Of a DNA stretch of 64,000 nt, positions 9,994 through 42,870 are shown piece by piece (positions within the stretch are counted from its first letter, which is position 1; each line of letters opens with the position of its first letter). This stretch comes from Pelagomonas calceolata (lineage: Eukaryota > Sar > Pelagophyceae > Pelagomonadales > Pelagomonadaceae). Below the pieces are notes generated by a model, which ran no database searches, was not told the DNA's origin, and saw nothing but the letters and a program-made list of their open reading frames with translations. Position numbers and translations under genes: made by a program. Location: contig CAKKNE010000006.1 in the NCBI GenBank assembly GCA_918797485.1, forward strand, positions 1,674,001 through 1,738,000, in the 5' to 3' direction.

Positions 9994-11896
9994 TCACAGG
10001 GTTACGTCCCACGGCACGCGGTCGACGCGTCCCGCCGGCGGCGCCGCTCCGAGGTGGAGGTGCTCGCGCAGGAAGGCGCCGCAGTAGTCGAGCGCGCGCC
10101 GGTTCCGCGGCGACGAGTGCGTGCCCTCGACGTCGGCGATGACGCGCGAACCGCCGTAGGCGCGGGCGAGCGCCTCCGTGTGCTGGGCGCCGAGCAGGGC
10201 GTCGCCCGTGGCGCGGAGGAAGAGCGCGGGCGCGTGGCACAAAGGGGCGCGCGCCACGGGCCGGAGCTCGTCGAGCGTGACGCCGGCGCGCTCGCGCACG
10301 CTCGCGTCGAGGAGCGCGATGACGGCCTGCGCGACGGGCCACGGCGCCGAAAACCCGCCGACCGTGCTCCGCTCGGCCAGCTCCGCCGCAACCTGTGCGG
10401 AAATCAAATTTTACGGCGTGTTCGTGCTGAATCATCGCGTCGTCCTCGCACCCGACGCACTGGTTGATTTCCACACAGGCCGCGACCTGCCGAACGTCTG
10501 CATACGATCCATCGAGGACGCAGCACGCGAGCGCGGCGTCGTATTTCGCCATGCAGAACAGCAACGCCGCGGCTCCGGCCGACGAGCCCCAGCCCGCGAT
10601 CCGGGACACGCGCGCGTCGCCGCGCAGAAACTGCACGGCTGCGGCAATGTCGTCCGCCTCGCGAAACCCGAGCGTGACCACGTCGCCCTCCGAGAGCCCT
10701 GCGCCCGCGAAGTCGAGCGCGAGCACCGAGCAGCCGAGCGAGAGCAGGAGCGCCAAGTAGTGCACCGCCTGAACGCGCGACGCCGAGTTCGCGTGGCAGA
10801 AGATGACGCAGGGCCGCTTTGCGGCGTCGTCGACCGCCCAGTGGCTCGCGACGAGGCGCTCGCGCCGGACGTTGCTTAAAGTAATGTCGCGCCGCAGCAC
10901 GCGTCCCTCCGCGATTTCGAACGACGTGGGGCCGAGACTCTGCGCGTCGTATGCGGCGCGCGGCGGCCGGATGATCGCCGCGACGAGGCCCTCGTAGAGC
11001 GCCGTGAGCGAGTCGCGTCGTTTTGGTTTCTCGAGGCGGGGCCGCGGCGGCCGCTCGGCCCAGGCCGCGGCGGCGTAGTCGTCAAGTAGGAGGAGCAGCG
11101 CGCGCGCGGCGTCGGCCGTCTCGAGCCGGAACGCGAAACGCCGGTCGCCCGCCTCGAACCGCACGCTCGCCCCGCGCCCGACCCACCGCTGGGGGCGACA
11201 CGTCGCGACCGCCGCGCCGTCGGCGCCGAGCACGTCGGCGCCACGGCAGCTCGCCCTCAAGACGACGCGCCGCCCGGCAAGCCGCGCGGGCGCCCCGGCC
11301 GTCGCGCGGAAGGCCACGGTGCCAAAGGCCGGCCACGTTGCGGCGAGCGCGAGGAAGTCGCGCGCGGCGTCGGCCCGCGGGTCGCGGCGCCGCGCGCCGA
11401 GCTCGAGCACCACGTCGACCGCCCAGTCGTCCAGGGCCCGCGCCCGGAGGACGCGCCGGCTGAGGCACCGCGGCAACGCGGCGCGCACCTCCGCCAACGA
11501 GAGCGGCGGCGCGCTTCCGTCGACGAGCTGGGCGGCCGCCGCCCGCGCGCCGTCGCGGACGGGGCACGGCCACGTGTCGGCCAGCGCGCAGCAACGCGCC
11601 TGGCGAAAGGCCAGGTCCCGAAGCGCCGCGTCCTCCTCCACGGCGGCCCGGAGCCCGGCCGTCCAAAGTCGCACCAGAATCACGAGGCGGCCGCCGTTCG
11701 CCAGCGCCGTCGCGCGGCCGAGGGGCGCCGCCTCGACGGCGCCGGTCGCGCTCGCCGCGTGGAGGGCGAGAAACCGCGCGTGCGGTTTTTTCACGTCGAG
11801 GCGCGCCGCCGCGGTCGCGAGCGCGTCCCCGACGCTTGCCCCGTCCTGCAACGCGAGTTCACAGTCCATGCCATCAGCAAAGTAAATTTTCGCCAT
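9994..11896 (-). CDS. FERM-domain and alpha/beta-hydrolase fusion protein, two exons split by an introner
   Basis: Exons are 11896-10487 and 10392-9994 (602 residues). The first 330 residues look like a FERM module: ubiquitin-like F1 (KIYFADGMDCELAL), helical F2 ending ARDFLALAATWPAFGTVAF and a PH-like F3 ending in LLLLLDDYAAAAW. Residues about 330-600 are an alpha/beta hydrolase with nucleophile GWGSSAGAAA, an Asp in RATGDALLG and a His in VEGTHSSPR, so the Ser-Asp-His triad looks intact. It resembles serine hydrolases of the BEM46/FAM108 kind. FERM domains bind membrane lipids and protein tails, so the fusion may place a lipase or thioesterase at a membrane; that is inference. Reading through the intron shifts frame and loses the catalytic Asp and His, so splicing is required. 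Confidence 0.8.
10393..10486 (-). mobile_element. Introner acting as intron in the FERM-hydrolase gene
   Basis: 94 bp. On the gene strand the upstream target copy GTCGCGGCC supplies the GT donor. The element begins TGTGTGGAAATCAACCAGTG and ends TTTGATTTCCGCACAG, giving the AG. The downstream copy GTTGCGGCG starts the next exon. The inverted ends and the roughly 9-bp near-duplication mark a DNA-transposon-like insertion. Its removal joins the conserved hydrolase frames (DVRQ|VAAELAERS). Confidence 0.85.
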
Positions 11897-36454: not shown

Positions 36455-37973
36455 TCAATCCGAAGCTCCGGTCTGGGGGGCGCGGTGCTCGTAAAATGCC
36501 AGCGCGAGGCACCCTGCCTGGAGGCGCCAGAAGCGGCCCAGGAACGCGGATCGCTTCGCCCGCGAGCCGTCGAGGTCGAGGGTCCGCGCGACCGCCGCGT
36601 AGTAGCCGAGCGCGAGGCCGTCGAGGAGGAGCGCGGGCGCCTGGACGGGCACGCGGCCCAGGGGCCCGAGGTCCACGGCCGGCGCGTAGGCGCCGGCGAC
36701 GTGTCCGGCGGCGTCTATCACGCGGACTAGTCCCAGCCTGTGTGGAAATCAAATTTCGGGCGCCCCACGGGCCTTCTTCGCCCGCCTTCTCTGCAGCTCG
36801 TCCCGGTAGTTCTGCGAGACCCGGCCCCGGCGCTTCCGGTGCGGGGGCTCGAAGATCGTCGCATTGCGGTTTTTCATCCAGTGCGTCTTCATCGCAGCGC
36901 CGCCGTTGTACTGCTGGTAGAGTGGAGCGAAGCGCACGACGTTGCCTTCGAGGTGCGTAAAAGCGTACCTCCACGCCATCGACGCGACGTTGTCCCCGTG
37001 ACCGCGTCTGCTCGATGGCGTGGCGTGGAGGTTCACGAAGGTCCACGCGATATTTCCACTCGGGTCCCGGCAGGGCAAGCACGAGGCACCCCGCGCTCCG
37101 GTCGTCCGGCAGCGCGGCCGGCAGCGTCCGGAGGCCGGCCGCGGCGTCACCCGGGACGTCGCCGAGGTCCTTCGCCACGAGGAGCGCCAGGTTCCAGGGG
37201 ACCGTCGCGGCGGCGGCCCAGAGGAACGCGCCGAAGAGCGGGTTGGCGGCGAACGGCGCCGGGGCGAGGCCCAGCGCGTCGCAGGCCTCGACGTACATGA
37301 GCGCGTCGAAGGCCGCGTAGATGCCGCAGAAGGCCAGCGCCCGGCCCAGCGGCGCGCGCCGCGCGAGGCGGCGCGTCGGCAGGCGGTCGTCCGAGTAGAG
37401 GAAGGCGGCGGCGCCCATGGCGGCGAAGGCCGCGGCGTAGGCGCGCCGCAGCGCCGGCTCCGGGGGCGTCCGCGTGACGCCCAGGCCCAGGCACCCGTAG
37501 AAGGCGGCGACGAGCAGGCCCTGCGCCCGGCTGCAGGCGCCCGACGGCAGCGGGCGCTCCGGTTTGTTCTTCGCGTCGACGTCGACGTCGCAGACGTCGT
37601 TGAACCAGTCGGCGTGCATGACGTAGCAGAGCGAGAGGGCGAGGCCCCGGGCGGCCGCGGCGGCGAACGCGGCCCGCCCGGCGGCCGCGCCCGTCGCCAC
37701 GGCGACCGCGCGCTTCGGTCCGCACACCTTGACGAGGAGGTAGGGCGGGAACACGACGTGGGGCGCGAACGACTCGGGGTGGTGGTGCGACAGCGCGTGC
37801 CTCGCCGCCGTGGCGAGCCACCCGACGGGGTCCGTGGGCCCGCTGTACGGCTTGGCCTTGCCCGCCGGGTCGCCCCGCCCCTGCGCGACGTGCGAGCGGT
37901 CCACGCCGAACATGGGCTCCTCGGGTTGGCTTCGAAGCCCTTGGAATTCGTCCACTGGGTCCTTCCCCGGCAC
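36455..37973 (-). CDS. UbiA-family prenyltransferase, two exons split by an introner
   Basis: Exons are 37973-37072 and 36737-36455 (394 residues; 374 if the ATG at 37913, MFGVDRSH, is used). The first aspartate motif is NDVCDVDVDAKNKPERPLPS, and the second is KDLGDVPGDAAAGLRTLP; together they bind Mg-prenyl diphosphate in UbiA enzymes. Hydrophobic segments occur throughout, as expected for nine membrane helices. Families in plastids and mitochondria make tocopherol, plastoquinone, chlorophyll or ubiquinone; the substrate is not resolved, though NKPERPLPSG resembles homogentisate and chlorophyll-type enzymes. Splicing joins LVLAL|LGLVRVID and restores a membrane helix; unspliced reading enters unrelated sequence. 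Confidence 0.85.
36738..37071 (-). mobile_element. Introner acting as GC-AG intron in the UbiA gene, with internal ORF
   Basis: 334 bp. The target copies are GCCGGGACC (GC donor) and GCTGGGACT. The 3' end GCGCCCGAAATTTGATTTCC + ACACAG matches, inverted, the 5' end of the WDR82 introner. The 5' end (CGAGTGGAAATATCGCG) is diverged. The inside holds the hairpin CCACGCCATCGA...TCGATGGCGTGG, shared with the introner at 41672, and an open frame of about 100 codons (SMAWRYAFTHLEGNVVRFAP, then YNGGAAMKTHWMKNRNATIF). Confidence 0.8.
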
Positions 37974-38994
37974 CCAGGTGGCCGCGAGAGCGAGCTCGAA
38001 GAGATGATGAGAATACTGCGGTATGTGTCTAACGACGCTACGTTATAATAAAACGCTACTTACGCTACTTACGCTACTTTACTACAAAACGACATGATAC
38101 ACACCCCCCGGCTGAGGCCTACTCTCTAAATTTGAGTCTATACACTGAGTGTCTATCGACGCTACTTTGATGCGCCGCTGCTTCTCGCTGCCGACGGATT
38201 CTGCAAGGCCCGGGGGTGGGTACTGCAAACATCATGATACATCTTTGCATTTTTTTATACTTATATCGCGCGGGGTGCTGATGCGAAGCATCCTGACGAT
38301 TTTGCTAGAGACTAAAAATCAACTAGAAAAATGTTACCGTGTGACTACTACTACTTCTTTCTAGAAGGTTTAGGGTTGCGATGATTTCCACCATGTTATT
38401 TTTTAAAGGATTGCGGGTTACATGGTCAAAACTTTTGTCTATTTTTGGGGTTTATTGGGATTAATATTTGTTAGGGACTCGCAGACTGGGGTGCGATTTA
38501 CGCGGAAAAAACGCGTAAGTTACACGTAAAGCACCGCTACAGGAGATCCCACGTAAAAAACGGCGTAAAAAAGGAGGTATCCAAAAGTCCTTCCAGGGCT
38601 CTTCCCGAAGCCGGCGCTAGCGGCCCTCTAAGACTCTAGCTCGCGATCAGCAGCTCGCAGAGTGTGGCTGCCCCAAACGTTGTCAGAGCCGAGCCAATTG
38701 CTAGTTGCATGCTGTTGCGAGCAAGGTGTGCACTCTAGGTGTGCGCTTATGCGCCGTGCTCGTGCTGCTATTGAGCTGCGTGGCCACAAGGCCTTGTTTA
38801 GGGGCTCTGGCTGCGTGTGTGCGGGTTTTATAAATAAATGCACGCGTAAATTACGCGTAAATTACGGCGTAAATGACGCTGGACCGTTTCTCACGTAAAG
38901 AACGCCGTGCGTAAATCGCACCCTAGCTCGCAGATGCAACCGAGCAACGCGAGGTGGGCATCTGCGGCATGATCTGCCAGTCCCTATATCTCTC
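37974..38994. other. Gap with tandem CGCTACTTA repeats and a hAT-like MITE
   Basis: 38050-38080 has about three copies of the 10-mer CTACTTACG. 38240-38480 is unusually A/T-rich. The element described next covers 38486-38926. No gene is seen. Confidence 0.5.
38486..38926. mobile_element. hAT-like non-autonomous transposon with 8-bp target duplication
   Basis: The ends are CTGGGGTGCGATTTACGC and its inverted partner GCGTAAATCGCACCCTAG. They are flanked by exact 8-bp copies CTCGCAGA at 38478-38485 and 38927-38934. Sub-terminal CGTAAATTACG and ACGTAAA motifs repeat at both sides, as transposase-binding sites often do. 441 bp and no long coding frame, so non-autonomous. An 8-bp duplication is typical of hAT transposons. 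Confidence 0.85.
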
Positions 38995-40099
38995 TTACGC
39001 GTCGGCAAGCCAGAGCGCCGTGTTGGCACACGCGGTCGCGACGACGCCGAAGCGCGGCGAGCACGCGATTCGCGCCACGGGGCCGGCGTGGCCCGCGGGC
39101 AGCGCCGCGCACGGCCGCCGCGGCGCCGCCGGGTCCCACGCGCGCAGGACGCCGTCGCCGCCGCCGGCGAGGACCGCGCCGCCGCCCGGCGCGAACGCGG
39201 CCGCCGCCGCCGCCGCGCGCTCGCCGCCGGCCGCAGACGGCGGCGCGGCGAACGCCGCGAGCGCGTCGCCCTCGAACGCGTCCAGCAGCGTGTGGACGCC
39301 CGCCTCGCCGGCGACCAGCAGCGTCTCGCCGTCGGGCGCGAACCTGTGTGGAAATCAACCAGTGACTTAGGTTGCATGGCGTGGGGCGCCCGAAATTTGA
39401 TTTCCACACAGGCGCGAACTCGAGGCGCGCCCAGCGGCCCCGCGCCGCGCGCGCCGCCGCCTCGGGCGCCGCGACCGCCGCCAGCGCGCCGCGGTCGACG
39501 CGGAACGTCGCGAAAGGCCCCGCGCGGTAGTGCCGCGCGTCGTAGAGCGCCAGCGCGCCGCCGCCCCGCGCGTCGGCGAACGCCGCGCCGGCGGCGAAGA
39601 CGAGCGCGTCGCGCGCGAACGCGGCGACGGGCGCGTGGCGCGGCCGGCGCGACGCGTCGGCCCCGAACACGTCCAGGCGCGCCACGGCCGCGCGGCGCTG
39701 CGCCGCATCCCAGAGGACGCACGTGCCGTCCTCGCCGAGGCTGAAGAAGGCGTCGGAGGCCGGCGACGGCGCGAGGCCGCAGACCGGCGCCGCGTGGCCC
39801 TCGAACGCGCGCAGGTAGCGGTTGTCGTGGAGCGACAGGTAGCGCACGCCCGTCCCGGGCGCCGCGTCGGCGACGACCACGCAGAGCTCGGCGTGGCCGA
39901 AGCACGCCGCGCCGACGCCCCGGGCGGCGCAGCGGACCTCCTTGCGCAGGACGCCGCGCAGGCCGTCGAGGACGCGGACCACGCCGTCGCCCGTCGCCGC
40001 CACGCACCAGCGGCCGCCGCCGTGGAAGCTGAGGCCCACGCAGGGCGCGCCCGCGCCGCGGAAGACCTGGGCGACCCGGAACTTCCGGGCGGCGTCCAT
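38995..40099 (-). CDS. WDR82: WDR82/Swd2-like WD40 protein, two exons split by an introner
   Basis: Exons are 40099-39420 and 39343-38995 (342 residues). Start MDAARKFRVAQVFRG. WD40 blades run throughout; the diagnostic segment is VRYLSLHDNRYLRAFEGH, nearly the WDR82/Swd2 sequence RYLSLHDNKYIRYFPGH, followed by LYDARHYRAGPFATF (as in YDLRSFDKGPFATF) and a C-terminus NTALWLADA (as in NMAFWLP). WDR82 serves in Set1/COMPASS histone H3K4 methylation and in the PNUTS phosphatase and termination complexes. Splicing gives RLEFAPDGETLLV exactly as the fold needs; unspliced reading inserts element sequence and shifts frame. Confidence 0.9.
39344..39419 (-). mobile_element. Introner acting as intron in WDR82, perfect 9-bp target duplication
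   Basis: 76 bp. The upstream and downstream copies are identical, GTTCGCGCC. The upstream one provides the GT donor. The element itself runs TGTGTGGAAATCAAATTT...AACCAGTG-type interior...TTGATTTCCACACAG, with the AG acceptor in its terminus. This is the cleanest case in the window and the youngest-looking. Confidence 0.92.
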
Positions 40100-41542: not shown

Positions 41543-42870
41543 ATGGCTTCGCCCGCGCCGTCGTCGTCAGCACGGCCCGCGCCGTCGCCCTCGTCGCAAC
41601 AGCGACGCGGCAAGTGGTCTCCTGAAGAAGAGGCATATGCGGCGCGTCTCATCCACGCCTTCGACGCGGGCGTACTGGCCAGCGCATAAATCAAACTGTC
41701 GCGGCGCATCTTCGCCACTGCTGAATCATGACCTCCACGCCATCGACGCGACGCGAGCTCGATGGCGTGGCGTTGTGGTCTATTACCGGTCGTGCCAGCC
41801 AGCACAGCCGCGTTCTCGCCGAGAAAGGACTAAGTGAGGAATCATCGGTGCACCCGACTCTGACTCTGTTGGATTGCGCACAGGTGCTCACCGATCTAGA
41901 AAACGGCGCCACACTCCGAGCCTTCCTCTCGCGGCGCCTGCGCTGCTCGGCCATGCGCATCTCCAAGAAATTCGCCGGCGACAAGTGCCTCGGCAAGCAA
42001 ATATACCTCCGCCGCGCCGCCTCGGCGGCCGAGGCCGAGGCCGAGGCGCGCGCGCTCGCGGCGCTCGAGGCGGCGTTCGTCGCCGCGGCGACGCGCCAAG
42101 CGGCCGCGCCGGCGAAGCGGCCGCGCGGCGAGGCCGCTGGCGACGGCCGCCGACGCAAAGCGCCGCGGCGCCCGCGCGCGCCCGCGCCCGCGGCGCCGCA
42201 CGGCGCCGCGCCGCGGCACGTCGTGTCGGCGAGCGAGTCCGTCGGCTCCGGCCGCGACGCCGACGACGCGGCATCGTCGTCGTCGGACGACGACGCCGCC
42301 GCGCGGCGCTACGGTGCCGCGGTCCCGCGGCGCCGCGGGGAGTCGCCGGTCCGCTTCAAGCGGCTCGGGTCAGCGACGGCCCTCGACCGGCTCGGCGGCG
42401 CCGGCGCGGCGCCCGCCGCGGCCTGCGCCGCGTTCGCCGGCGAGGCGCGCGCGCTCGCGGAGGCGCACCGGCGCGCCGAGGCCGCGGCACTCTCGGACGG
42501 CGGCGGCTTCCCAGGCGGCGGCGCCGCGGCCGCGGCGCCGCCCGGCGGCGGCCCAACGCCGCCGCCCGCGCAGCTGCTGCTCGAGCTCGCGCCGTCGGGC
42601 GCCGCCGCCGCGGCCGGCGCGCGTCAGGCACCCGGCTTCTACGCGCTGGCGATCGCGCGCGGCGCGTCGAGCGGAGCGCTCGCGCCCCTCGGCGGCGGCC
42701 GCGCGCGCGCGGACAGCCACGCGTCGGAGGGCGCGCTGCTCCTCACCGTCGCCGACGCCCCGGACGACTTCGCCGCGCTGCGCGACGACGGGCCGCTCGA
42801 CCTCGACGACGCGGCCTGGCTCGACGCGTTCGACTCCACGACCCAGGTCGCCGCCGCGCGGGCCGCGTGA
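41543..42870 (+). CDS. Stramenopile SANT-like/MRISKKF-domain protein, two exons split by an introner
   Basis: Exons are 41543-41671 and 41884-42870 (371 residues). After a short Ser/Pro leader comes RRGKWSPEEEAYAARLIHAF + DAG, joined across the intron to VLTDLENGATLRAFLSRRL, RCSAMRISKKFAGDKCLGKQ and IYLRR. I recognise this W-(S/T)-x-EEE-x-YA ... GTTLR-x-FL ... MRISKKF ... GKQ block as a domain repeatedly found in diatoms, brown algae and oomycete relatives. Its function is unknown; it resembles a DNA-binding helical module. The remaining 280 residues are Ala/Pro-rich with acidic Ser runs (near 160) and a C-terminal acidic segment (DDFAALRDDGPLDLDDAAWL) like an activation domain. A role in transcription is inference. 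Confidence 0.75.
41672..41883 (+). mobile_element. Introner acting as intron in the MRISKKF-domain gene
   Basis: 212 bp. The target copies are GTACTGGCC (GT donor) and GTGCTCACC (three differences, so older). The ends AGCGCATAAATCAA and TTGGATTGCGCACAG are imperfectly inverted. The inside carries CCACGCCATCGACGCGACG and GCTCGATGGCGTGGCG (41735-41753, 41757-41772), shared with the UbiA-gene introner. The element has an in-frame stop, so splicing is required to make the conserved domain. Confidence 0.75.

Follow-up and report, generated by a model that had tools for sequence, protein, structure and literature searches.

Anatomy of an intron in a WDR82-like gene

The window, a 64,000-nucleotide stretch of the Pelagomonas calceolata genome, contains on its minus strand a WDR82/Swd2-like WD40 gene, whose coding sequence we reconstructed from a first exon at 39420–40099 and a second exon, running through the stop codon, at 38995–39343, separated by a 76-nt GT–AG intron of phase 2 (39344–39419). 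Joined in the direction of transcription (40099–39420 and 39343–38995), the exons encode 342 amino acids with full-length 100% identity to the deposited P. calceolata protein, which excision of the intron reproduces exactly. The product has a WD40 match in Pfam and, among the 60 PDB matches listed, the longest single matched stretch (residues 16–298) was with S. pombe C824.04 (chain 9scd_D, 1.8e-25). Because we take C824.04 to be Swd22, a member of the WDR82 family, the name WDR82-like is a fair one. Codon usage scored the true frame at 125 versus 11 for the next best, and the unspliced frame is open over 371 codons. Beside the gene, at 38480–38910, the window has lower GC and repeated ACGCGTAAA/ACGTAAA words.

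On the minus strand, the intron consists of GTTCGCGC followed by a 68-bp non-autonomous element with perfect 15-bp terminal inverted repeats (TIRs) and an 8-bp flanking duplication (39344–39411). The first TIR, CTGTGTGGAAATCAA on the forward strand at 39344–39358, reads on the minus strand as the 3′ splice end TTGATTTCCACACAG; the second, its perfect complement, lies at 39397–39411 on the donor side of the intron. The two minus-strand copies of the target-site duplication (TSD) are identical at 8/8 positions: the intronic copy GTTCGCGC (39412–39419), which supplies the 5′ splice site GT, and the exonic copy (39336–39343), both reading GCGCGAAC on the forward strand. An RNA hairpin at this intron is stronger than those of shuffled sequences (z −3.8).

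An earlier, sequence-only reading of this DNA had described inverted ends, which indeed form the perfect 15-bp repeat CTGTGTGGAAATCAA/TTGATTTCCACACAG, together with a nine-base duplication. The nine-base identity GGCGCGAAC (39335–39343 and 39411–39419) is present, but the duplication itself is the 8-bp GCGCGAAC; a ninth base was rejected, being the element's own last G (39411), here equal to the flanking G (39335). In 92 related elements, chosen because their TSDs match at 6/8 or better, the eight duplicated positions agree in 86–100%, and the ninth in just 29% (G at −9) or 43% (C at +9).

The same reading held that splicing from the GT of the target copy to the AG of the element end restores the peptide RLEFAPDGET and that one insertion left the protein unchanged; the first is confirmed in the sequence and the second by the identity of the spliced product with the deposited protein across all 342 residues. 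Splicing of the intron is predicted from the deposited gene model and the continuity of the protein, and the pipeline that produced the gene models drew on transcriptomes (PMC9481584).

A large family of short elements with shared ends

In the 32.4-Mb genome there are 1,562 exact copies of the 15-bp end (790 forward and 772 reverse), compared with 0 of the reversed control, and 97 elements of 51–111 bp have both ends exact. For a closer description, we paired ends at separations of 35–330 bp in 301,933 bases of fetched loci and the window, with overlaps counted repeatedly, yielding 110 elements; the loci had been chosen by similarity to the WDR82 element or by exact TIR matches, making this a non-random sample of the family. 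The TSD matched at 8/8 positions in 50 elements, 7/8 in 29, 6/8 in 13 and 5/8 or fewer in 18, such that 92 of the 110 reached at least 6/8. Random pairing of flanks gave 8/8 in 0.02% of draws, versus 50/110 for the real elements. Like miniature inverted-repeat transposable elements (MITEs), the sampled elements are short (52–206 bp), bear TIRs and TSDs and have no coding capacity.

Two interiors are common to the same ends: type A (GAGTTAGGTT...GGGGCGCCCGAAAT), to which the WDR82 copy belongs, and type B (GCGTCGGGTGCACCC...AACGCGCCGTAAAAT), with a consensus of 203 bp built from 11 copies that each differ from it by 2–11%. Short copies, including the 68-bp A-type element in WDR82, apparently resemble internal deletions. 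An intron-length peak at about 210 bp in P. calceolata has been linked to introners and compared with those of Aureococcus in the genome paper (PMC9481584). A 203-bp B element plus 8 bp of duplicated target would make a 211-bp intron, close enough to explain that peak.

Two side results were set aside. The exact 15-mer also occurs in 43 IMG/VR stretches, a number that we judged, by estimate and not by computation, to be about what chance would yield in so large a collection, and viral carriage was rejected. An ungapped identity of 74% between two loci of a chromosome 1/5 duplicate (L007 and L008) is meaningless because the two are offset.

A predicted splice donor on the coding strand

We called coding strand and frame from the codon usage of the empty-site sequence, blind to splice sites, using for all calls an iterated codon model whose seed set excluded WDR82. 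This model replaced an initial one, derived from poorly chosen ORFs, under which top-strand donors had been GT in 32, GC in 20 and other in 40 of the 92 elements. The iterated model gave confident calls for 73 of the 92 elements with TSD matches of at least 6/8, and in every one of these the coding-strand target began with GT (53) or GC (20), compared with 19/73 starting with GY on the non-coding strand (Fisher p = 8e-24). For the 19 less confident elements of this set, the top-scoring strand had GT in 15 and GC in 4. Among the 18 elements with TSD matches below 6/8, all 10 with a confident call had GT, and 5 of the 8 without one had something other than GT or GC on the top strand.

The family has two hallmarks of introners: many similar copies occur as predicted introns at unrelated positions (1,562 exact TIRs; donor and acceptor correctly placed in 73/73 confident coding copies with TSD matches of at least 6/8), and one splice site is co-opted from the 8-bp TSD, with GT or GC at its start in 73/73. 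The view of the WDR82 intron as a transposon-like introner, with its donor from the target copy and its acceptor from the element end, is supported both at the locus and across the family sample (73/73 confident copies).

At the other end of the intron, the acceptor CACAG was intact in 73/73 elements and its donor-side mirror pentamer in 67/73 (p = 0.028); over all 15 TIR positions changes were similarly frequent (20 on the donor side and 18 on the acceptor side), the difference being confined to the last five. GT was favored over GC relative to its availability, with a used ratio of 53:20 versus 873:2213 in flanking codons (odds ratio, 6.7), and beyond GY the 73 confident elements had no strong donor consensus. 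GC donors are present in 20/73 of these sampled introners, and GC–AG introns usually make up a small percentage, far below this share. Intron phases 0/1/2 numbered 32/13/28, tracking the phases at which GY occurs in flanking codons (1166/781/1139), and element orientation relative to the gene was balanced at 26 against 24 (50 assigned; 23 unassigned). Of 50 perfect TSDs, 40 had GT at one end and 0 at both (8 expected if independent; p = 7e-7), as expected under splicing selection but not under a preference for palindromic targets.

Origin of the intron and alternative explanations

Together, these results indicate that the WDR82 intron was almost certainly made by insertion of a short non-autonomous DNA transposon, an introner, and consists of a target duplication plus the element. 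The introner would have inserted into the minus-strand WDR82-like gene at GTTCGCGC, duplicating 8 bp; the GT of the upstream target copy would then have become the 5′ splice site, and the element's inverted repeat ending in TTGATTTCCACACAG the 3′ splice site, with a putative branch point. In general, the target would need to supply GT or, less well, GC as its first two coding-strand bases. Because the intron equals one target copy plus the element, the original reading frame is restored with length and sequence unchanged, and the element can work in either orientation, since its two inverted repeats terminate in the same acceptor. The inverted repeats, the duplication, the family, the restored frame and the match to the deposited protein are direct observations; insertion was presumably mediated by a transposase, with events in the order given here and with selective removal of insertions that could not be spliced.

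We considered it unlikely that the donor pattern reflects a transposase preference for targets starting with GY in place of splicing selection. Such a preference would account for GY at one end in 92/92 elements with TSD matches of at least 6/8, GY-free targets numbering 0/92, but the bias follows the coding strand (73/73 versus 19/73 on the other strand), which is invisible to a transcription-blind preference, and GT stands at both ends in 0/50 perfect TSDs. It is this strand test that separates splicing selection from insertion preference, although a weaker GY preference may have operated alongside selection.

Spread of the intron ends by reverse splicing of an RNA copy and reverse transcription, without DNA transposition, is very improbable. 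It has been proposed for fungal introners (PMC9860276), and agrees with the location of the sampled family members, as introns within genes. However, it predicts no locus-specific 8-bp duplication, which 92/110 elements have at 6/8 or better, and neither symmetric inverted ends nor use of both orientations (26 against 24; 50 assigned, 23 unassigned); moreover, the boundaries of the element differ from those of the intron. That 39344–39419 is an ordinary intron or a hairpin in coding DNA, its inverted repeats arising by chance, is refuted by the family evidence and can be given next to no weight: the 371-codon open frame does mean that retention would not be obviously destructive, but 1,562 exact end copies, the TSD statistics and a spliced product equal to the deposited protein stand against it.

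DNA transposition of an introner accordingly remains our reading of the locus, and makes it a worked example of intron birth without protein change, in a marine alga whose genome is assembled to chromosome scale.

Other elements in the window

A second family introner of 86 bp lies at 10393–10478 (minus strand) in an alpha/beta-hydrolase-like gene, with the TSD GCCGCAAC/GCCGCGAC (7/8). P0033 and P0034, two proteins from the databases, run exactly into an introner at this position, and P0032 and P0041 do so similarly when read by eye. A degenerate B-type copy, 77% identical to the 203-bp consensus and with its ends outside the match, occupies 41688–41858 (minus strand).

A UbiA prenyltransferase gene contains a composite introner-like element of 326 bp (36738–37063, minus strand) with A-type ends and a 7/8 TSD, its TIR being exact on the acceptor side and degenerate (10/15) on the donor side. 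Its insert is 207 bp of coding-like sequence with 85% identity to the end of a 264-aa frame (G000:C6:727973–728172). Differences between the two are mostly synonymous (pS 0.41, pN 0.08; dN/dS 0.13), and the insert is therefore not a recent copy of the gene with this frame; judging from these substitutions, it may have been captured from a relative or may still be constrained.

Search for a mobilizing transposase

We found no autonomous element with introner ends in profile searches for hAT, MULE, IS1595, KDZ and P transposases or in the fetched flanks. The sole hAT match is an element of about 3.65 kb (locus L098, 4042–7708; G000:C4, about 4.4995–4.5032 Mb) with a 721-aa open frame and the TSD TTGCTCGC (8/8). 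Duplications of 8 bp are typical of the hAT superfamily, but the perfect 14-bp TIR of this element, CAGGGCAGCAGAAG, is unlike CTGTGTGGAAATCAA, and it was rejected as the autonomous partner. MULE (PF10551) and Merlin/IS1595 (PF12762) profiles had no genome match at E ≤ 0.001, with controls that matched; KDZ and P-element profiles (PF18758 and PF21787) had no match either, but neither did any control.

End pairs more than 330 bp apart in the fetched flanks yielded no convincing long element, those with TSDs of 6/8 or 7/8 being the outer ends of neighboring short elements. Likewise, 12 unpaired exact ends led to no long element except the 326-bp composite at 36738.

Introner sites compared with database proteins

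We next compared reference introner sites with database proteins (P-numbers), taking ENA/JGI-only entries as environmental; their records do not state whether the source was DNA or RNA. Chimeric contigs are a risk in such data, and we used only the exon–element junctions.

An allele of WDR82 without the 76 bp, which the sequence-only reading had suggested looking for, did not appear: 6/6 ENA protein clusters that reach the site carry the insertion. P0003, P0004, P0005, P0006, P0007 and P0010 continue into introner sequence (VWKSNFGRP or EIKFRAP-like, P0007 being diverged), and P0008 ends ahead of the site. Within the intron, P0004 changes frame compared with the reference, and so the WDR82 intron seems to have indel variants. 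The distant relatives P0009 (53% identical), P0011 and P0012 show no break at this position; P0012 is itself a transcript, and for P0009 and P0011 the DNA or RNA nature is not given.

The reference carries an introner with a GC donor in an exonuclease-like gene (locus L037, G000:C1); P0015, P0016, P0017 and P0018 run through this position without a break, and P0019 and P0021 read into an introner there, as does the more diverged P0023 in a similar way. The continuous sequence is that predicted by GC–AG excision, and spliced RNA could give the same sequence. Elsewhere in this gene, the target GTCTTGGC (L037 1813–1820) is empty in the reference and followed by a putative introner start in P0017, the sole match among 2,800 positions; the target GCGAATTG (L037 1399–1406), also empty in the reference, has a putative acceptor end directly before it in P0018 (≤2 mismatches), two other matches in the P0018 scan being exon sequence.

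In the window, the coding-strand target GCGCCCAG (10183–10190, minus strand) is empty in the reference and, judged at the protein level, appears to be followed by an introner start in P0033 and P0034. Scanning 1,150 positions with P0033 and no GY condition gave 10190–10183 as the sole match besides the known intron, and a scan of GY positions alone gave the same site; P0034 has a slightly different introner start there, read by eye. On the coding strand, the three empty-in-reference targets open with GT, GC and GC, in line with the splice rule, and the position scan was free of any such condition.

The exact junction scan returned no match for P0019 or P0021, nor for P0034 at 10190–10183; these introner starts are off consensus and the junctions were read by eye. 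Beyond the introner, the tail of P0034 matches no frame of the reference exon, and the tails of P0003 and P0021 are likewise unmatched. P0008 and P0018 end in LSLIHI, as a translated library adapter would. The introner ends at the three empty-in-reference sites are read at the protein level, and contig chimeras are possible, but are less likely at a unique exon–element junction.

Overall, relatives of these sequences in other samples hint at insertions that only some P. calceolata carry. We consider it somewhat probable that the introner family is segregating in wild Pelagomonas with GT and GC as latent intron sites, and that introners like that at 36738–37063 carry captured coding fragments. 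If so, intron gain could be watched within one species, almost any coding GT or GC would be a latent intron site, and introners such as 36738–37063 could move exons between genes; coexistence of occupied and empty sites in the species would allow intron gain to be measured from population data.

Comparison with known introners

The mechanism is that of published introners, and P. calceolata introners have already been reported from intron length; what the present analysis adds is a strand-resolved splice rule and signs of segregating insertions. Work by Huff, Zilberman and Roy in 2016 reportedly described the introners of Aureococcus anophagefferens and Micromonas pusilla as short non-autonomous DNA transposons, with one splice site of their own and the second obtained from the duplicated target. 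Like Pelagomonas, Aureococcus is a pelagophyte, and the P. calceolata element matches that description in carrying one splice site and taking the other from the TSD.

The introner elements of M. pusilla and Aureococcus have canonical splicing motifs, according to PMC7789003, unlike the 20/73 P. calceolata introners that use GC. The introners of Guerin et al. (2022, PMC9481584) come from the same species and the same genome, with the 210-bp peak; the intron-length passages of that paper give the peak, and the TIR, TSD, splice rule and short subfamily come from the present analysis.

Gozashti et al. (2022, PMC9860276, Fig. 2B) describe Symbiodinium microadriaticum introners with TIRs, a 4-bp TSD, the 3′ splice site in the element and the 5′ splice site from the TSD; the division of splice sites and the TIRs are thus the same as in P. 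calceolata, where the TSD is 8 bp instead of 4 bp. They also describe introners from an Aureococcus sp. TARA MAG with an 8-bp TSD, as in P. calceolata, that carry both splice sites and lengthen the transcript by 12 bp, whereas insertion in P. calceolata leaves the transcript unchanged (PMC9860276, Fig. 2F).
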